Shown in pieces: positions 3,597-23,115 of a stretch of 64,000 nt of DNA. A model generated the notes under the pieces. The model saw only the letters and a program-made list of their open reading frames with translations, was not told the DNA's origin and did not search any database. The position numbers and the translations under genes are program-made. Origin of the DNA: an uncultured Alphaproteobacteria bacterium (GTDB taxonomy: Bacteria; Pseudomonadota; Alphaproteobacteria; Rhizobiales; Aestuariivirgaceae); assembly GCA_937872985.1 (NCBI GenBank), contig CALMUW010000042.1:1-64000 (forward strand). Direction: 5' to 3'. How positions within the stretch are numbered: position 1 is the stretch's first letter; the number at the start of each line of letters is the position of its first letter.

Positions 3597-4367
3597 TTAG
3601 AAGAGAGACGATTGTTTGACATCGTCGAGGCGGATCACACCATTGATCAGCCACGTATCAGGGTAAAGCGAGTGGGTGCCCATCGCGAGGAGCATCCCCT
3701 TTTTCGGGTACTCCTCGCCGAAAACACGCTGCAACTCGTCGAGCGCTTTGGTTTCCCCATACTGGTTCGACCAGTTGAAATACGTCGCCTCAATCTCCCA
3801 GTCCTGACAGGTGCCAAAGCGTTCACCGTCCTCGGTGCGATAACGGTATTTGAACCGATAGGGGCACGGTCGATATGGCGTTGCTTGTTTCGAGAAGAGA
3901 TCACCCTGCGCTCGTAGTGCATCGAAGCGGTTGGTTTCTTCATCGAGATCGGAAGAAGATTTTTTCTCGGTGACAAACTCGATTACGTCTGGTTTCAGCA
4001 ACGCGAGTGATCGACCGGCGTCGCGCTCCCGCTGAAGGCTGGTGACGATCGATTTCGCCAGAAACCGTTCGCGTTCCCCTCGCTTCAACTCACCAGCAAT
4101 TTCAATCGAGTCCTGATCGACGCGCCTGCTTTCCGGGCGCGGATCATCATTCGGGCGCCGCCACTTGAAACTGATGCGGTCCCACCGCCCAAATTTCTTG
4201 TTGGCATCAAGCAGTCGAAACGAAACCGGATAGAGACGGAGCCACTGGCCATACAGATCGAGACCGGCGCAGCAAACTGTTTCCCCATGTCGCTGACCGA
4301 CCTGGGGTGCTGCCTTGATGATGACGACCGCTTCGGTGTTACCCGACGAGGGCAAGTGCTCCGTCAT
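3597..4367 (-). CDS. Unrecognised protein partnered with DUF488
   Basis: A 256-residue protein that I do not recognise. It is mixed alpha/beta, rich in aromatic and basic residues (for example SFKWRRPNDDPRPESRRVD), and has no signal peptide or membrane helix. The beginning (NTEAVVIIKAAPQVGQRHGETVCCAGLD) and the middle (LYPVSFR, FGRWDRISF) look like beta-strands. The ATG at 4367 lies inside the 3' end of the DUF488 gene (29-base overlap), so the two are probably translationally coupled. Base composition is more AT-rich than the packaging and replication genes around it, as expected for acquired cargo. A nucleic-acid or defence role is possible but unproven. Confidence 0.7.
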   Translation of the reverse strand: MTEHLPSSGNTEAVVIIKAAPQVGQRHGETVCCAGLDLYGQWLRLYPVSFRLLDANKKFGRWDRISFKWRRPNDDPRPESRRVDQDSIEIAGELKRGERERFLAKSIVTSLQRERDAGRSLALLKPDVIEFVTEKKSSSDLDEETNRFDALRAQGDLFSKQATPYRPCPYRFKYRYRTEDGERFGTCQDWEIEATYFNWSNQYGETKALDELQRVFGEEYPKKGMLLAMGTHSLYPDTWLINGVIRLDDVKQSSLF

Positions 4368-4857
4368 GCGTGCGTTCACACCCCTTACCAATCTGGCTCT
4401 TCAATCCGCTTTGAACGCCGAGGTGAACGAGTCGAAACCCGCCGCGGCGAGCCATTTCCTCGGCAACGATGCAGCGATGGCAGTGAGCATGATCGCGCTC
4501 AAAGCAAAGGAGGCATGCCATCCTGTTCGAGGCGGCATCTAATCCGCGACGCATATCGGTCTGCGCGACTGAAGACTTCAGGTGCGTTCCAAAAATCTGC
4601 CGGAAGTCATCGTAACGCCCTTCGCGCGCAGCGATCCGTCCAGGCTTAGGATCTCCGAGACCCTTGAGGTGCAGGTACTCGATATCGCAGGTATCCAACC
4701 AGCCTGAAAGCGCGGTCTTTGAGAATCCTGGCTTTCTGGAGATCGGAACATCGCGCACATCGATCAGAAGGTCGATCCCGACTGCTTCCAGCGTAGCCAG
4801 AAAGTCGCCGATAGAACTTCCTTCGTATCCGATAGTATGCAGAGTTTTCTGCTTCAT
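4339..4857 (-). CDS. DUF488 family protein
   Basis: A 172-residue protein beginning KTLHTIGYEGSSIGDFLATL, the usual opening of DUF488, followed by LLIDVRDVPISRKPGFSK and the cysteine/histidine motif CLLCFERDHAHCHRCIVAEE near residues 115-135. The CxxC and HCHR pattern suggests a metal or redox site. DUF488 proteins have no agreed function and often sit in mobile cargo islands beside nucleases or restriction-like genes. It is first in a two-gene leftward unit with the overlapping unrecognised protein. The 170-base AT-rich gap upstream could hold its promoter, so it may be an independently expressed cargo module. Confidence 0.88.
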   Translation of the reverse strand: MKQKTLHTIGYEGSSIGDFLATLEAVGIDLLIDVRDVPISRKPGFSKTALSGWLDTCDIEYLHLKGLGDPKPGRIAAREGRYDDFRQIFGTHLKSSVAQTDMRRGLDAASNRMACLLCFERDHAHCHRCIVAEEMARRGGFRLVHLGVQSGLKSQIGKGCERTHDGALALVG

Positions 4858-4992: not shown

Positions 4993-6207
4993 TCATGGGT
5001 AACATAGATTTGGGTCTGCCAGCACCCGATCATCCATCGGCCAGCAGTTCAGCTGCGAGAGTTCTGAGCGCATGCGCCGCAACCAGCGGGACCACGCCAT
5101 TGCCACAGAGGCGAAGCCGGTCCACCCGGTGGGCCAGCCCATCAGCGCCTCGACGAACAGCGGGTTCAAGGTCCGGCTCGCATCGGAGGTATCGCTCCCA
5201 GCCATCGGCGTGGCCAGGACCTGGCGGCCAAGCAGGCCGTTCACCGGGGTGTTGGCCAGACTGGTCGCCCCGTCCTTGTGATCGCGCGCGGTCGGCGTCA
5301 TCCACATGCCCGCCGCATGCGTCAGATCGGCCGTCCGGCGGTTGCCCGCGCTCGGCTTGGCAAGCCCGTTCGCCATCGGCGTCGGCCAGTCGCGCGCCAT
5401 GCGGTCCAGACCCTTCTCGTTCTTCCGCTCGCCACCCCGGCTTCGGAAGCTGTCGATCTGCGGCGTAGGCCAAAGTGCTGCCGTCGTCGCGAGGTTCATC
5501 CCGTGCTGCCCTGCTTCCTGCGAGGGTGTCGGCTTCATCTGCCGGTTCTCGTTGGCACTGGCCCTCGGCGTCGGCCAAAGCCGCAGCAGTTCCGTCCGGT
5601 TGCCGCCACTCGACCGGGTCCCGGAGCAGGCGCGCGGGGTGGGCCAGTTCGTCTCCTTCGCGGATGGCGAGGATGAACAGCCGCTCGCGCTTGTGGGGCG
5701 CGCCGACTTCCGCCGCCGTGAAGAGGCCTGCCGCAAGGCGGTAGCCCATGCCGACCAGTCCGCTGGCGACTTCGGGGAAGCCGAGGCGGAGATGATGGGC
5801 GACATTCTCAAGAAAGATGAAGGGCGGCTCAATTTCGCCGATGATGCGGGCGACATGAGGCCAGAGGTGGCGCGGATCGTCCGCGCCGCGGCGCTTACCC
5901 GCAACGGAGAACGGCTGGCACGGATAGCCCGCAGAGAGGATGTCCACCGCGCCGCGCCATGGTTTGCCGTCGAAGCTGGCAACGTCGTCCCAGACAGGCG
6001 CGCGATCCAGGGACGCGTCTTCCATCCGCGCCACGATAATGGCTGCGGCGAAGGTTTCCCGTTCGACATAGCCCACAGAACGATATCTGGGCAGTGCGAT
6101 GGTGAGCCCGAGGTCGATCCCGCCTGCGCCGGAGCAGAGGGAGAAGCCGAAAAGGCATGCGTCTCCGGCTCCGGAAGCATCTCCGGAGGGATGTAGAGCC
6201 AGGTCAT
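4993..6207 (-). CDS. Candidate overlapping WPTP-repeat protein, in an alternative frame of the cytosine methyltransferase gene
   Basis: A 404-codon frame with no stop lies on the same strand as the C5 methyltransferase but in another frame. It starts (ATG ACC TGG) only four bases after the methyltransferase ATG and ends 37 bases beyond its stop. The product is rich in Ser, Trp and Pro. It carries spaced repeats NWPTPRA, LWPTPRAS, LWPTPQ, DWPTPMAN, WMTPTARD and ends with LNPLFVEALMGWPTGW. From memory, WPTP repeats and LNPxFVExLMGxPxGW endings occur in predicted phage proteins linked to methyltransferases. GC-rich DNA gives many false long frames, so this is a candidate only. Confidence 0.42.
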   Translation of the reverse strand: MTWLYIPPEMLPEPETHAFSASPSAPAQAGSTSGSPSHCPDIVLWAMSNGKPSPQPLSWRGWKTRPWIARLSGTTLPASTANHGAARWTSSLRAIRASRSPLRVSAAARTIRATSGLMSPASSAKLSRPSSFLRMSPIISASASPKSPADWSAWATALRQASSRRRKSARPTSASGCSSSPSAKETNWPTPRACSGTRSSGGNRTELLRLWPTPRASANENRQMKPTPSQEAGQHGMNLATTAALWPTPQIDSFRSRGGERKNEKGLDRMARDWPTPMANGLAKPSAGNRRTADLTHAAGMWMTPTARDHKDGATSLANTPVNGLLGRQVLATPMAGSDTSDASRTLNPLFVEALMGWPTGWTGFASVAMAWSRWLRRMRSELSQLNCWPMDDRVLADPNLCYP

Positions 6208-6211
6208 CCAT
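5030..6211 (-). CDS. DNA (cytosine-5) methyltransferase
   Basis: Transfers methyl groups from AdoMet to C5 of cytosine. Motif I SLCSGAGGIDLGL lies near residues 24-36, the catalytic Cys in AGYPCQPFSVAGKRRG near 95-110, ENV near 135-137, motif VIII-like GAPHKRERLFIL near 169-180, and a late motif LRLCGNGVVPLVAAHALR near the C-terminus. At 393 residues it is near family size. The region between motif VIII and the end, where the target-recognition domain belongs, is a low-complexity string of LADAxGxR-like blocks. The ATG lies one base after the stop of the other methyltransferase gene. No partner endonuclease is visible, so it probably protects element DNA or regulates. Confidence 0.92.
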   Translation of the reverse strand: MDDLALHPSGDASGAGDACLFGFSLCSGAGGIDLGLTIALPRYRSVGYVERETFAAAIIVARMEDASLDRAPVWDDVASFDGKPWRGAVDILSAGYPCQPFSVAGKRRGADDPRHLWPHVARIIGEIEPPFIFLENVAHHLRLGFPEVASGLVGMGYRLAAGLFTAAEVGAPHKRERLFILAIREGDELAHPARLLRDPVEWRQPDGTAAALADAEGQCQREPADEADTLAGSRAARDEPRDDGSTLAYAADRQLPKPGWRAEEREGSGPHGARLADADGERACQAERGQPPDGRSDACGGHVDDADRARSQGRGDQSGQHPGERPAWPPGPGHADGWERYLRCEPDLEPAVRRGADGLAHRVDRLRLCGNGVVPLVAAHALRTLAAELLADG

Positions 6212-6212
6212 G

Positions 6213-7580
6213 TCACGCGGTGGATTTGCACGTTCGCGCGGGTTCAGGAGAGGCGTCGGTGTCGGATATGTCGGGCGGACTGACCGCTCCGTCGCCCAGC
6301 CGCTCGGCCTTCACCTGCGCGAAGGTCCGTCCGTCGCCGTCAAGGATTGCCTCGCGTCCGGTGTCGGCCTGCCAGCGCTTGATGGCGACATCGACATAAG
6401 CCGGGCTGATCTCCATCGCGAAGACACGGCGGCCATTGGCTTCACCAGCCATGATCTGCGATCCCGAACCGGAAAACGGCTCGTAGCAAAGCCCGCCCCG
6501 CGCCACATGCTGGCGCATCGGGATCCCGAAGGCGTCGAGCGGCTTCGGCGTCGGGTGGTCGGGCCGGTCGTCCTTGGCGAAGCTGGGCAGCGCCCAAGTC
6601 GATGGAAGCGTTTCCTCGGCCACCTTCGGCGGGCGCTTGCCCTTGATCCAGCCCATGAAGCAGGGCTCGTGCTTCCAGAGGTAGTGCGATCGGGTCAGAA
6701 CCCCGCGGTCCTTCACCCAGATGATCTGCTGATGGACGAACGAGCCTGCCTTCTCCCAGCAGGCTTCCAGCATCGCCTGGCGGCGCGAGGCGTGCCAGCA
6801 ATACCAGGCGGCGTCTTCCGCGATCGCCTCGGCAACGGCCGCCGCGATGAAGCCGTCATAGAGCTCCGCGCCCTGGCTCGAGTCGTCCCAGGTGGTGCCG
6901 TACGATGCCGACCAGTCCTTGTTGCGGGTCGGATGGTTCGAGCCGTCGTAGTCGACGAGATAAGGCGGGTCGGTGGCGAACAGGATGGCCCGCTCGCCAT
7001 TCATCAGGCGGCGGACATCGGTGGCGCTGGTGCTGTCGCCGCAGAGCAGCCGGTGATCGCCAAGCAGCCACAGATCGCCGAGACGAGATGCCGGATTGCG
7101 CGGCGGCTCCGGGATCACGACGGGGGCTACGCCCGCAACGTCGGATGTCTCGGCGCCCGGTTCCAGCGCGAGCAGCCGGTCGAGTTCGCCATCGGAGAAG
7201 CCGATCAGCGACAGGTCGAATTCATCGGCGACGAGTTCCTGCAGTTCGCCGGAAAGCAGCGCTTCGTCCCAGGCCCCGAGTTCTGTCAGCTTGTTGTCGG
7301 CGATGCGATAGGCGCGACGCTGCGCTTCGGTGAGATGATCGAGCACGATGACCGGCGCTTCGGTGAGGCCGAGCTGCGCAGCAGCCATGATCCGGCCATG
7401 GCCGGCAATGACCTCGCCATCGCTCGATACCAGCACGGGGACCGTCCAGCCGAACTCCGCCATGCTCGCGGCGATCCTGGCGACCTGGTCCGCGCCATGG
7501 GTCTTGGCGTTGCGCGCATAGGGGCGCAGGCGGTCGAGCGGCCAGGTCTCGATCGCTTCGGGGGCGAAGCTGAGGGTCAT
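6213..7580 (-). CDS. ParB-domain plus amino-methyltransferase fusion
   Basis: A 455-residue protein. Residues 1-100 form a ParB/Srx-like domain with the phosphate-binding motif EVIAGHGRIMAA (about 56-67). The rest is a DNA N6-adenine or N4-cytosine methyltransferase of the N6_N4_Mtase type, with DPPY at 194-197 and the AdoMet-binding motif EPFSGSGSQ near 370. DPPY before the FxGxG motif indicates a beta-class order. This fusion is common in prophages and mobile elements, where it acts as an orphan methylase. It is directly upstream of the C5 methyltransferase and probably cotranscribed, so the element would carry two modification activities without restriction. Specificity cannot be read from sequence. 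Confidence 0.93.
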   Translation of the reverse strand: MTLSFAPEAIETWPLDRLRPYARNAKTHGADQVARIAASMAEFGWTVPVLVSSDGEVIAGHGRIMAAAQLGLTEAPVIVLDHLTEAQRRAYRIADNKLTELGAWDEALLSGELQELVADEFDLSLIGFSDGELDRLLALEPGAETSDVAGVAPVVIPEPPRNPASRLGDLWLLGDHRLLCGDSTSATDVRRLMNGERAILFATDPPYLVDYDGSNHPTRNKDWSASYGTTWDDSSQGAELYDGFIAAAVAEAIAEDAAWYCWHASRRQAMLEACWEKAGSFVHQQIIWVKDRGVLTRSHYLWKHEPCFMGWIKGKRPPKVAEETLPSTWALPSFAKDDRPDHPTPKPLDAFGIPMRQHVARGGLCYEPFSGSGSQIMAGEANGRRVFAMEISPAYVDVAIKRWQADTGREAILDGDGRTFAQVKAERLGDGAVSPPDISDTDASPEPARTCKSTA

Positions 7581-7953: not shown

Positions 7954-8388
7954 TCAACGTTTCGCCGCGCCAGCCAGTGCGATTACTTTCTGCTTGGAAT
8001 GGCTGCGACTGAGCCGACGACCGTTGAGACGAAACGCGATGACGCACAGCGCGTAGAGCCAGTGCTGGTGAGCTGCCGAACGCTGAAGCCCGACCGTCCA
8101 GCAGATTGTCTTCCAGCGTTCCCCGTAGGCACGCATCCAGACGATCTTGCCGTCGATCGGGTCGAGACCCACGGTCCAGCTGAGTGTCTCCTCCATGCGG
8201 CTGATCGCGGCAGGCGATGGCAACACGCGCATCGGCTTCGGCTCCTGTCCGACGAGATCGCTGAACTCGTACAGCATGGTTGGCCAGGTGCTGAAATAGC
8301 CCTGCACCTTCTCCTCGGGCAGGCGCTTGAGAACATAGGCTGCTTCAGCCAGCCTCTCTTCGACCAGGCTCGGTGTCCATTCCGTCAT
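7954..8388 (-). CDS. DUF6362 family phage protein
   Basis: A 144-residue protein opening MTEWTPSLVEERLAEAAYVLKR, with a central LSWTVGLDPIDGKIVWMRAYG segment and a helix-turn-helix-like QRSAAHQHWLYALCVIAFRLNG. I recognise it as DUF6362, a family found in alphaproteobacterial prophages. The WMRA and RSxxxxHxxW features suggest a sigma-like or DNA-binding helical domain, but no function is established. The ATG overlaps the stop of the RuvC-like gene by four bases (ATGA), so the two are translationally coupled. It is the last gene before the 373-bp gap ahead of the methyltransferases. Confidence 0.82.
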   Translation of the reverse strand: MTEWTPSLVEERLAEAAYVLKRLPEEKVQGYFSTWPTMLYEFSDLVGQEPKPMRVLPSPAAISRMEETLSWTVGLDPIDGKIVWMRAYGERWKTICWTVGLQRSAAHQHWLYALCVIAFRLNGRRLSRSHSKQKVIALAGAAKR

Positions 8389-12803: not shown

Positions 12804-14495
12804 TCATGCAGCCCTCCCGATCAGGTCAGCGGGAGCGGTGTCCGCTGCGCTGAAGACGAGCGAGCGAATGGCATCGCGGTTGAAGCGGAACGCCAGGAGC
12901 GCCGATGCCTGGTAGCGCGTGAGCCCGAAGTCCCGCCGGTACTCGGGCGGCAGGAACGAGAGCTGCTTGTCGGTCGGCGGCTGGTTCAACCACCGCCTTG
13001 TCTTGTGGGCGCTCTCGTCGCTTTCGTGTTCGTTCAGCCAGTCATCGGCTGCCGCGAGACAGACCGTGCGTTCGCCGGCCGCCAGCAGATGGGGCCGCTG
13101 TTTCTGGACGCCACCGATGCCGTACCAGCGGCCATTGAGAAAGAAGACCCCGCCCCAGGCGTTGAAACCGCTGGCGATGAGCGCGGCATCGTCGCCGAAA
13201 AGATCGCACCACCGGAAACTCGACCGCTTTAGGAGATCGATCTCCGACATCACGAAATCGCCGAGCGGTTTGGCCTCGCCCGTCTCGCTCTTTTCCCAAT
13301 GGTGGCCGCAAAGGGGACACTCGGTGGTGGCGAGCGGCACGACGGCGCCGCATTCAGGGCAGTCCTTCGTCGGCGCCTCGCCAGTGGACTCGCAACCGTT
13401 CAGGTCAACGTCCTGTTCGAGCGATCCGTGAAGCAGCGTCGACGTGCCGAAATCGAGGACGATGCAGTCGGTCTTCAGAACCCCGGGATGTTCGTCCAGC
13501 GAGACCGTGCGCAGTCCGCGGCCGATCATCTGGATCATCGTCGACTTGTAGGAACTCGGCCTCAGCAGGACGACGCAGCTCGTGGGAGGATGATCCCAGC
13601 CTTCGGTCAGAACCGCGACGTTGACCACCACGCGAAGATCGCCCGCCGCATAGGCCGCGAGCAGGGATTTGCGCTCGGCATCCGGCATTTCGCCATGGAC
13701 GAGCCCGGCAGGAATTCCCGCGCCCTTGAATGCGCTGGCGACATTGCGGGCATGGTCGACGGTGGAGCAGAACACGACCGTCTGCCGGTTTCCGGCCTTT
13801 TCCTGCCATTGCCGAATCACGGCATCGGTCACCGGAGTCCGGTTCATGATCGCATCGACTTCGCTCATGTCGAAGTCGTCGGCGGTGCGCCGCACCTTGG
13901 TGAGCTGATCCTGGACACCGACGTCGATGACGAAGGTGCGCGGCGGCACGAGATGGCCGGAGGCGATCAGCTCGCCGATCCGGATCTGGTCCGCGACATT
14001 CGAAAAGATGCCGCGAAGACCACGCTTGTCGCCGCGGTTGGGCGTGGCAGTGACGCCATAGATCCTGCAGGCGGGATTGGTCTTCAGGGCCTGGTCGATG
14101 ATCCGGCGATAGCTGTCGGCAGCCGCATGATGCGCCTCGTCGATCACCAGAAGATCGAGCGCCGGCATGGCGTCGAGATTGCCGGACCGCGCCAGCGTCG
14201 GCACCATGGCGAAGGTCACCTGTCCCTTCCAGGACTTCTCGCGGGCATCGACGACGGATGTTGCAAGACCGGGAACGACACGGCGGAACTTGTCGCGGTT
14301 CTGGTCGGTGAGTTCATCGCGATGGGCGAGAACGCAGGCCTTGGCACCGGGATCGACGATCATGCGCCCCGCGACAGCCGAGAGCATGATCGTCTTGCCA
14401 GCCCCGGTCGGGGCCACGGCGAGCGTGTTTCCATGTTGCGAGAGCGCGCCGACGCTTCGCTCGACGAACAGTTTCTGGCGGGGTCGCAGCAACAT
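12804..14495 (-). CDS. Superfamily 2 DEAD/DEAH-box helicase
   Basis: A 563-residue helicase similar to the SSL2/RecQ-like phage helicases. Motifs are APTGAGKT (28-35), LAHRDE near 57-62, DLLVIDEAHH (114-123), GVTATPNRGD (motif III), then the second RecA lobe with TVVFCSTVDHA, VLTEGWDHP and QMIGRGLRT (motif VI). It is followed by a zinc ribbon CPECGAVVPLATTECPLCG and a C-terminal domain with RWYGIGGVQK. The ATG at 14495 starts just before the first helicase motif; the longer upstream frame is the antisense-like shadow of the preceding gene. It probably unwinds DNA for replication or recombination of the element. Confidence 0.92.
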   Translation of the reverse strand: MLLRPRQKLFVERSVGALSQHGNTLAVAPTGAGKTIMLSAVAGRMIVDPGAKACVLAHRDELTDQNRDKFRRVVPGLATSVVDAREKSWKGQVTFAMVPTLARSGNLDAMPALDLLVIDEAHHAAADSYRRIIDQALKTNPACRIYGVTATPNRGDKRGLRGIFSNVADQIRIGELIASGHLVPPRTFVIDVGVQDQLTKVRRTADDFDMSEVDAIMNRTPVTDAVIRQWQEKAGNRQTVVFCSTVDHARNVASAFKGAGIPAGLVHGEMPDAERKSLLAAYAAGDLRVVVNVAVLTEGWDHPPTSCVVLLRPSSYKSTMIQMIGRGLRTVSLDEHPGVLKTDCIVLDFGTSTLLHGSLEQDVDLNGCESTGEAPTKDCPECGAVVPLATTECPLCGHHWEKSETGEAKPLGDFVMSEIDLLKRSSFRWCDLFGDDAALIASGFNAWGGVFFLNGRWYGIGGVQKQRPHLLAAGERTVCLAAADDWLNEHESDESAHKTRRWLNQPPTDKQLSFLPPEYRRDFGLTRYQASALLAFRFNRDAIRSLVFSAADTAPADLIGRAA

Positions 14496-14505
14496 CGTGC
14501 GGCCC

Positions 14506-15087
14506 TCACTGCGCCCAGGAGGGACGGATGCCCGGCTGCGGCATCGAAGCCTGCGCGGTCTGCGACTGTGTTGCCGGCGCCCTGGCTGTTGCGCCCGCCA
14601 GCGGCGCGTACTCCTTGTGGTCCGGTGTGACAGCAGCGCGGATCTCGTTCTTTTCCTCGCCGTTGGTGTCGGTCCCGACATCGATGCGGGCCACGAACTC
14701 CAGGCCGTCGAGATCGGCGAAACCGCTGATGCGGCGCGCCGCCTGCGCCTGCGCCGAGGTATCCTTGTCGGAGATGCCGCGAGCGGAATTCAGCATGCCG
14801 CGGATCAGACTGCGGCCCATATTGGCCCAGTCCGGCCCCCTCGGGCTGTAGAGCCCGATCAGCGTGAAGATCTTGCGCCGTGCATAGGGCCCTTCAAGCA
14901 CGGTGAACTCGCCGGACAGGTACACCGAACCGGTCGTGCCACGCGTCGCATAGCCTCCGGTCCAGCCCTGAGCCGGATCGTCGAAACCGCCCGGGCGGAT
15001 GGTGAGGCGCACCTTGGCCAGCGTGCCCTTCGGAATGATGTTGCTGTTCTGCTTGGCGTCGTTGAAGTCGTTCCAGGATCCAGACAT
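14506..15087 (-). CDS. Conserved-looking phage protein of the recombination module, unknown function
   Basis: A 193-residue protein that I do not assign to a named family. The first 140 residues look like a compact beta-rich domain (GTLAKVRLTIRPGG, TGSVYLSGEFTVLEGPYARRK) with a later LEFVARIDVGTD strand. The C-terminal 50 residues are Ala/Gln/Pro-rich and disordered. A beta domain with an acidic or disordered tail, sitting between a Sak4-like ATPase and a helicase, resembles single-strand binding proteins in layout, but the tail lacks the typical acidic tip. This is context-based inference only. The gene follows the ATPase gene by 16 bases. Confidence 0.72.
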   Translation of the reverse strand: MSGSWNDFNDAKQNSNIIPKGTLAKVRLTIRPGGFDDPAQGWTGGYATRGTTGSVYLSGEFTVLEGPYARRKIFTLIGLYSPRGPDWANMGRSLIRGMLNSARGISDKDTSAQAQAARRISGFADLDGLEFVARIDVGTDTNGEEKNEIRAAVTPDHKEYAPLAGATARAPATQSQTAQASMPQPGIRPSWAQ

Positions 15088-21281: not shown

Positions 21282-21784
21282 CGAGCATGAACCGAAAAGA
21301 GTCGCGTCCGGCGCGCCCCGGAGACGTCGCTGAAACCGACGCGAGCGTCCTCAGGCAGTTGTCGGACCTGAAGCGGATGACAGTCAGCGAGCTGAAATCG
21401 AAGTGGGAGGCTTTGTTCGCCACCGCCGCCCCGAACAACAGTAGGGGCTACCTTGAACTCCGGATCGGGCACCGCATTCAGGAGCTGACCTATGGTGGTC
21501 CATCGCGCGAGACGCGACGGATGCTGGATCTGCTAGCCGATGAAACGGAAGGCAAGATCAACCGCAAGTCCATCATTGCGGATGATCGCAATCCGGTGGT
21601 CGGGACGCGGCTGATCCGGGAATGGGATGGGATCGAGCACACCGTCACCATCCTGCGGGATGGATTCGACTGGCAGGGCCGAAAGTTCAAGTCGCTCTCG
21701 GCGGTGGCCCGGACCATCACCGGCGTCAACTGGAACGGCTACCGATTCTTTGGGCTGGGTGAAGCGCGGAGGAGCGAGCGATGA
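21278..21784 (+). CDS. DUF2924 family protein
   Basis: A 168-residue basic protein with the DUF2924 signature: LSDLKRMTVSELKSKWEALF (about 28-47), YLELRIGHRIQELTYGG, then GTRLIREWDGIEHTVTIL and GFDWQGRKFKSLSAVARTITG. The C-terminal half resembles a small DNA-binding domain of the RNA-polymerase-inhibitor or Tudor-like type described for related families. It almost always lies directly before a large serine recombinase in alphaproteobacterial elements, and here the two genes overlap (ATGA at 21781). It may be a recombination directionality or accessory factor, which is unproven. Confidence 0.9.
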   Translation: MTSMNRKESRPARPGDVAETDASVLRQLSDLKRMTVSELKSKWEALFATAAPNNSRGYLELRIGHRIQELTYGGPSRETRRMLDLLADETEGKINRKSIIADDRNPVVGTRLIREWDGIEHTVTILRDGFDWQGRKFKSLSAVARTITGVNWNGYRFFGLGEARRSER

Positions 21785-23115
21785 GCACGTCACCGTCAGC
21801 CACCATCGCCATCCGGCGTCAGCGCTGTGCGATCTATACACGCAAGTCGAGCGAAGAAGGGCTCGACATGGAATTCAATTCACTCGACGCGCAGCGCGAT
21901 GCCTGCGAGGCCTATGTCGCCAGCCAGCGCGCCGAAGGCTGGGCCGCGATCCGCGAGCGGTATGACGATGGCGGCTTCTCTGGCGGAACGCTGGAACGAC
22001 CCGGCCTGAAACGGCTCATCGCCGATGTCGAGGCTGGGCTTATCGACGTCATCGTCGTCTACAAGATCGACCGGCTCAGCCGGTCGCTGATGGACTTCGC
22101 GAAGCTGGTCGAGATCCTGGATCGGAATGGGGTGACCTTCGTCTCAGTGACGCAGTCCTTCAACACGACGACCTCGATGGGGCGACTGACGCTCAACATC
22201 CTCCTCTCGTTCGCGCAGTTCGAGCGCGAGGTCATCGGCGAGCGCATTCGCGACAAGGTCGCGGCCTCACGCAAGCGCGGCATGTGGATGGGTGGCTTTG
22301 TCCCCTTGGGCTACAATGCCAAGGACCGAAAGCTGGTCATCAACGAGGCGGAAGCAGCAATTGTCCGCATGATCTTCGAACGCTTCTCGACGATCGGATC
22401 AGCCACCGTCCTGACGAAGACGTTGGTGGCCGAAGGCGTCTGCAACAAGCGCGGCAAGCGCATCGACAAGGGCTACCTCTACAAGGTCCTGAACAACCGC
22501 GTCTATCTCGGCGAAGCCGTGCACAAAGGCACGGCCTATCCGGGCGAACATGCGCCGATTGTCAGCCGCGAATTGTGGGACAAGGTCCAGAGCATCCTGC
22601 AGGAGAACCGCCACGTCCGGGCCGCCCATACCCGTTGCCAGACACCGTCGCTGCTGAAGGGGATGATCTTCACGGATACCGGCACGGCGATGACGCCGAC
22701 AGCCACTAAGAAGGCGTCGCGGCTGTATCGCTACTATGCTTCGATGGACCTGATCAAATGCCGCCCAACATCGGACTCGACGTCCATCCAGCGTCTGCCC
22801 GCCGGAATGGTCGAGGATGCGGTCGTAGGTGAGGTCCGGCGAATGATCCGGGCTCCAGAGATCGCGGCTCGTACCATCGATGCCATTCGACACGAAGTCC
22901 CAAATGCGGATGAACGGGCCGTCGTTTCAGCCCTTGGTAGCTTCGACCAGCTATGGACGGCGCTGTTTCCTTCTGAGCAGACCCGCATCGTCCAGCTCCT
23001 CGTCGAGCGCGTCACTGTCGGGGCCGGCGGCATCGCCATCGATCTGCGTCAGGACGGTCTGACGTCGCTCATCCGGGACATGGTCACGCCGCGTGAGGGA
23101 AAGGCGACAGCATGA
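21781..23115 (+). CDS. Large serine recombinase (integrase)
   Basis: A 444-residue recombinase. The resolvase catalytic domain carries AIYTRKSSEEG (nucleophile Ser near 23), DGGFSGGTLERPGL, VVYKIDRLSRSLMDF and LLSFAQFEREVIGERIRDK (about 10-150). A recombinase domain follows (GGFVPLGY to GEAVHKGTAYPGEHAPIVS) and a C-terminal domain. The usual zinc-ribbon cysteines near the position LLKGMIFTDTGTAMTP are absent, as in many alphaproteobacterial members. It is the last but one gene of the element and should integrate and excise it. At 444 residues it is shorter than typical 500-residue members. Confidence 0.93.
   Translation: MSTSPSATIAIRRQRCAIYTRKSSEEGLDMEFNSLDAQRDACEAYVASQRAEGWAAIRERYDDGGFSGGTLERPGLKRLIADVEAGLIDVIVVYKIDRLSRSLMDFAKLVEILDRNGVTFVSVTQSFNTTTSMGRLTLNILLSFAQFEREVIGERIRDKVAASRKRGMWMGGFVPLGYNAKDRKLVINEAEAAIVRMIFERFSTIGSATVLTKTLVAEGVCNKRGKRIDKGYLYKVLNNRVYLGEAVHKGTAYPGEHAPIVSRELWDKVQSILQENRHVRAAHTRCQTPSLLKGMIFTDTGTAMTPTATKKASRLYRYYASMDLIKCRPTSDSTSIQRLPAGMVEDAVVGEVRRMIRAPEIAARTIDAIRHEVPNADERAVVSALGSFDQLWTALFPSEQTRIVQLLVERVTVGAGGIAIDLRQDGLTSLIRDMVTPREGKATA

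Follow-up and report, generated by a model that had tools for sequence, protein, structure and literature searches.

In the window, by which we mean the whole 64,000-nucleotide stretch of DNA that was analysed, two selected proteins from one locus divide between them the motifs of a single C5-cytosine DNA methyltransferase. Taking the sequences together with structure models, we consider it very probable (about 0.88) that the locus encodes a two-subunit C5-cytosine DNA methyltransferase, the two subunits being encoded over each other.

Overlapping frames and the selection acting on them

Both frames lie on the minus strand. The alpha gene (5030-6211, 393 aa) is the predicted catalytic subunit and carries motifs I-VIII, a low-complexity linker and motif X; the beta gene (4993-6207, 404 aa), read in +1 against alpha, carries a candidate target-recognition array and motif IX. 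The two starts are paired in the sequence ATGGATG (6205-6211), with the alpha ATG at 6209-6211 and the beta ATG at 6205-6207, 4 nt after the alpha start, and beta ends 37 nt past the end of alpha. A GTG at 6231, upstream of the beta ATG, would give a beta of 412 aa. An earlier note on this DNA had reported two long same-strand frames with a four-base offset at the start and a 37-base overhang, and both were found as it described them.

Stop codons were counted in 90 non-identical full-length sequences, made up of the window itself plus homologues found on viral contigs, in which alpha is 1179 nt throughout and the mean nucleotide difference is about 10%. The beta (+1) frame was open in 89 of the 90, a true internal stop being found in one sequence alone (L056); in four other sequences with a +1 stop, this lay upstream of the beta ATG. 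Over the same set the +2 frame held 926 stops, present in every sequence, and the antisense frames of the gene held 208-522. Stops thus did not arise freely in the beta frame among close homologues, with one against the 926 of the +2 frame. The paired ATGs (+0 and +4) were kept in 86 of 89 homologues, and also in 71 of 73 loci from named genomes of Alphaproteobacteria, among them Paracoccus, Rhodobacter, Jannaschia, Devosia and Erythrobacter.

Three individual loci departed from this picture. In L056 (stop at alpha codon 179) and L208 (stop between 2142 and 2146) beta is interrupted within its N-terminal half, with the WPTP array intact; as the WPTP region is kept in both, beta may sometimes start internally, and the two are either broken copies or cases of beta with an internal start. 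In L005 (624-1542) it is the alpha frame that stops early, leaving an open frame of 306 codons, with beta intact.

For each region of the gene, changes silent in one frame but altering the other were scored as sites seen over sites possible; because sites are not phylogenetically independent, the p values are to be read as guides, but the direction is not in doubt. Over alpha codons 21-190, beta-silent, alpha-altering changes were seen at 104 of 418 sites and the converse at 230 of 365 (p 2e-27), and the third codon position was the most variable over most of this region. The direction was the opposite over alpha codons 199-320, where beta-silent, alpha-altering changes were seen at 208 of 241 sites and the converse at only 60 of 276 (Fisher p 2e-52); here (codons 201-320) most of the variation fell on first positions of alpha, equivalent to third positions of beta (0.22-0.30), with the other two at 0.01-0.08. 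Both classes were low over codons 321-360 (46/89 and 19/94), with beta still favoured, and over codons 361-393, the motif X region, alpha was favoured again (p 0.003). The substitution pattern therefore indicates selection on the alpha frame over codons 21-190, on the beta frame over 199-320, on both to about codon 360 and on alpha again at motif X. Purifying selection on the methyltransferase frame throughout was not what was found, and the expectation of the earlier note, that the WPTP frame might be the one selected in the shared middle and the methyltransferase frame the one carrying the ends, was upheld in both its parts.

Two stretches of the catalytic region, at 5732-5791 and 6032-6091 of the window (alpha codons 141-160 and 41-60, respectively), showed less variation at alpha-silent, beta-changing sites (0.23-0.25) than most of the rest of that region, where about 0.5-0.7 of such opportunities are used. 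Beta-frame ATGs at alpha codons 48 and 136 are conserved, which makes internal starts, or a second constraint, possible explanations for these low-variation stretches.

Division of the methyltransferase motifs

Searches with alpha gave a Pfam match to PF00145 (E 7e-32) limited to aa 23-190, the span of motifs I-VIII (5642-6148), and a match to phrog_363 (E 2e-55). Motifs I, IV (PCQ), VI (ENV) and VIII (RxR) of the C5 methyltransferases could all be located in alpha, and residues P97, C98, Q99, E135, R175 and R177 are invariant. At the C terminus, GNGVVP fits the motif X pattern GNxxxP, with G370 and P375 invariant and N371 nearly so; this motif (HRVDRLRLCGNGVVPLVAA, 5072-5128) overlaps the end of the beta motif IX. 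AlphaFold modelled the catalytic domain with pLDDT mostly above 85, and the alpha model could be superposed on M.HhaI over 211 residues (Z 22.0). Residues 199-326 had no structure (pLDDT 30-40), and motif X was again ordered, with pLDDT 82-94 from residue 371. The structureless part corresponds to the LADA-type linker (alpha codons 199-326, 5234-5617), whose LADA blocks are WPTP codons shifted by one base (cTGGCCGACGCC). Being the target-recognition region read in the wrong frame, the blocks would be a by-product, staying free of stops so that translation of alpha can run on to motif X. By sequence and model, alpha is thus best described as a catalytic domain joined to motif X by a disordered linker.

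The C-terminal half of beta contains four WPTP units and one WMTP unit in tandem (5170-5646), and beta ends with LNPLFVEALMGWPTGWT, the putative motif IX (5119-5169), which was kept in 36 aligned beta tails. Neither Pfam nor profile searching against PDB sequences recognised motif IX in isolated beta; phmmer aligned it to residues 270-301 of M.HhaI, a match that is not significant on its own. Beta did match phrog_1008, named 'DNA methyltransferase', and phrog_27243, and the alpha tail matched the end of the same phrog_1008 profile; it was this shared profile that first pointed to both frames belonging to a single enzyme.

Single-chain relatives allowed the order of these parts to be compared directly. 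In mycobacteriophage ShiLan gp70 and in prophiGD91-2 gp27, motifs I-VIII, LPTP repeats, motif IX (in ShiLan LAPAFSEWMMGWPAGW) and motif X follow one another in one frame, and the beta array is collinear with the LPTP repeats, which places it between motifs VIII and IX. Judged by the same collinearity, a motif IX following the target-recognition region is present in beta and absent from alpha. An AlphaFold model of a natural single-chain relative (L304) superposed on M.HhaI at full length (Z 26.2, 242 residues), with the recognition repeats themselves at low confidence. From this comparison, beta appears to belong to the same methyltransferase as alpha, as its target-recognition region together with motif IX. 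In Mycobacterium phage Jarcob (gp69/gp70, L299), a relative of the single-chain enzymes has been annotated as a pair of overlapping genes for DNA methyltransferases and is perhaps a recent split.

The number of modules varies between loci. The window has five in tandem, and the beta arrays of its relatives have 1-6 units with a median of 39 residues; in two relatives of the window, L208 and L214, whole modules are absent. Certain units, such as WPTPRAGNPGSRPNGKGGKILAEE and WPTPTVCGNYNRKGASATSGDGLATAV, share 74-89% identity across loci with alpha parts only 35-45% identical, and sit at different array positions. We tentatively suggest that beta may be an interchangeable specificity subunit, in which phages gain, lose and exchange in-frame WPTP modules, each reading its own target, with both frames staying open, although on present evidence we would not favour this. 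If true, one catalytic subunit would be re-aimed by module swaps, and the same modules would also form its linker. Stand-alone beta genes without an overlapping alpha were sought among the phrog_1008 loci, and none was found.

Alternatives to two overlapping subunits

The alternative that survives best, though improbable, is a programmed +1 frameshift near alpha codon 190, which would put motifs I-VIII, the array and motif IX into one chain and leave no separate beta. An artificial chain of this kind (P0003), in which residues 17-186 of the window alpha were joined to beta via a four-base step (GGAG), gave one unbroken alignment with ShiLan gp70 and one with prophiGD91-2 gp27 (32 and 35% identity; 125 and 138 bits), each covering about 370 residues and spanning the repeats and motif IX. 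This end-to-end agreement with natural single-chain enzymes supports the two-subunit reading and would fit a frameshift as well. The N-terminal half of beta, ahead of the array, is moreover under little amino-acid selection, its residues being mostly free to change. A frameshift would, however, leave unexplained that beta stays open across this half. Alpha-silent changes that create beta stops were seen at 2 sites over alpha codons 8-190, where matched mutation types predict 20.0, an approximately tenfold depletion; in the control, changes creating stops in the +2 frame were seen at 16 sites against 17.1 expected. It would also not account for the conservation of the beta ATG at +4 and, as motif X is selected in the alpha frame, would need a second shift back. 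Since stop-creating changes are missing from its N-terminal half, translation of beta most probably begins close to the alpha start.

Considerably less probable still is a beta with no relation to the methyltransferase that it overprints, such as an anti-restriction factor or a homing endonuclease hidden there. Published cases exist of HNH endonucleases encoded out of frame within methylase genes of mycobacteriophages (PMC11855218), but beta alone matched no family in Pfam, NCBIfam or the PDB-sequence profile search, and a hidden HNH endonuclease was rejected, as Pfam detected no HNH domain. Overprinting by an unrelated protein would also leave alpha without any motif IX, and would not account for the agreement, in both order and spacing, between the array and motif IX of beta and the VIII-to-X region of the single-chain enzymes.

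A beta frame that is never expressed and merely follows from high G+C content and conserved methyltransferase codons can be dismissed: long spurious open frames are common within the window, but the other frames of this gene are full of stops in homologues, substitutions over codons 199-320 favour beta, and the beta frame is kept in phages whose alpha is at just 31-43% identity, so that a chance open frame is rejected by stop counts and substitution classes alike. The proposal that a real second protein starts inside the first is borne out by the stop counts and substitution pattern in homologues, and the two-subunit methyltransferase remains the preferred reading of the locus.

Spread among phages, proposed mechanism and significance

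The +1 layout was also found in unrelated phages that infect Synechococcus, Komagataeibacter, Acidovorax and Microcystis, where alpha is just 31-43% identical, which confirms the remark in the earlier note that WPTP proteins recur in phages. In the Paenibacillus larvae phage Shelly, a 'g55 internal gene' is annotated +1 within a cytosine methyltransferase gene; it is nested in the same way and has the same motifs as the window beta, and its record calls it a hypothetical protein and gives no role. Across 299 Proteobacteria genomes, all 21 places matching phrog_1008 sit +1 inside a C5 methyltransferase. We also sorted by motif 160 distant loci, most of them viral; as these had been collected with queries from this family, the proportions are not a census of phage methyltransferases. 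Of the 160, 96 are nested like the window, with motif IX in the +1 frame and motif X in the alpha frame; 26 resemble M.AquI in that +1 holds IX as well as X (e.g. L233, L267 and L287); and 13 are single-chain, with motif IX in the catalytic frame (motif X was not located in 3 of these), the remainder being unresolved or truncated. Motif IX was counted in these loci with a looser pattern and manual reading, a stricter first regular expression having missed about one third. In three viral contigs (L374, L375 and L376) the catalytic domain seems to switch frame midway, with motif IX in a further frame; these may be additional split forms or sequencing errors.

The nearest known case is M.EcoHK31I (YGGCCR), an E. 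coli restriction-modification enzyme, whose smaller gene is reportedly nested within the larger one in another frame; the window beta, +1 in alpha with its 37-nt overhang, fits this arrangement. The large subunit of M.EcoHK31I has motifs I-VIII and X and the small subunit motif IX (PMC3404938), the same division between two chains as in the window. Its predicted target-recognition domain was assigned to the large subunit (PMC3404938), whereas in the window a multi-module array occupies beta, and the alpha region matching the array position is freely changing and predicted to be disordered. The window gene also differs from this restriction-modification enzyme in lying in a prophage-like region. 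M.AquI (CYCGRG) is a naturally split C5 methyltransferase with its C-terminal part on a second chain (PMC3404938); it has motif X in the small subunit, unlike the window, where motif X is in the large one, and corresponds to the 26 distant loci with both late motifs in +1. Multispecific Bacillus phage methyltransferases, such as that of phage H2, carry tandem target-recognition domains for several target sites (PMC8936443). Tandem recognition modules are thus shared with the window, but the Bacillus phage enzymes are single chains, whereas the candidate specificity modules of the window are on a separate, out-of-frame subunit. A split between catalysis and DNA reading over two frames, known from one or two enzymes, proves on these sequence comparisons to be common in phages. 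No description of nested phage methyltransferases was found in the open-access literature. Three features appear to be new: the wide distribution among phages, the modular nature of the beta array and the shift of motif X from one frame to the other.

Directly upstream of the pair lies a gene for an N6/N4 methyltransferase with a ParB-like N terminus (6213-7580, minus strand; PF01555, E 2e-8). Its TGA abuts the paired ATGs, an arrangement common among homologues, which suggests translational coupling. Ribosomes ending the upstream methyltransferase at the TGA at 6213 would re-initiate at either of the two ATGs, four bases apart. From the first they would make alpha, with motifs I-VIII, the disordered low-complexity stretch and motif X, and from the second beta, with the tandem WPTP modules and then motif IX in its C-terminal half. 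The two would assemble into a complete methyltransferase, beta docking at the position of the M.HhaI small domain and each module contributing specificity, and the complex would methylate phage DNA. It would probably serve to shield phage or prophage DNA from restriction by the host through self-methylation. Genes for a serine recombinase (21781-23115, plus strand), a DEAD/ResIII helicase (12804-14681, minus strand) and DUF6362 (7954-8388, minus strand) nearby suggest that the locus is in a prophage, and a DUF488 gene (4339-4857, minus strand) lies just downstream of the overlapping pair; a non-exhaustive search of this prophage-like neighbourhood identified no restriction enzyme. The likely course of evolution, in an order that we infer, is from a single chain, through a split after motif VIII, to motif X being regained by the large frame.

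To our knowledge, long dual-coding genes have seldom been proven in prokaryotes. The present locus offers a dual-coding case with a clear selection switch, repeated in many phages, and with a reason for both frames. The families phrog_1008, phrog_27243 and phrog_26627, so far 'hypothetical' or loosely named, become probable DNA-reading methyltransferase subunits, and methylome predictions made from the annotated catalytic frame only would overlook the part that determines the target. Taken together, the single-chain, M.AquI-like and nested forms trace a path by which an enzyme may be split and re-nested through frame changes, and the modular array would provide a natural set for learning the recognition code.
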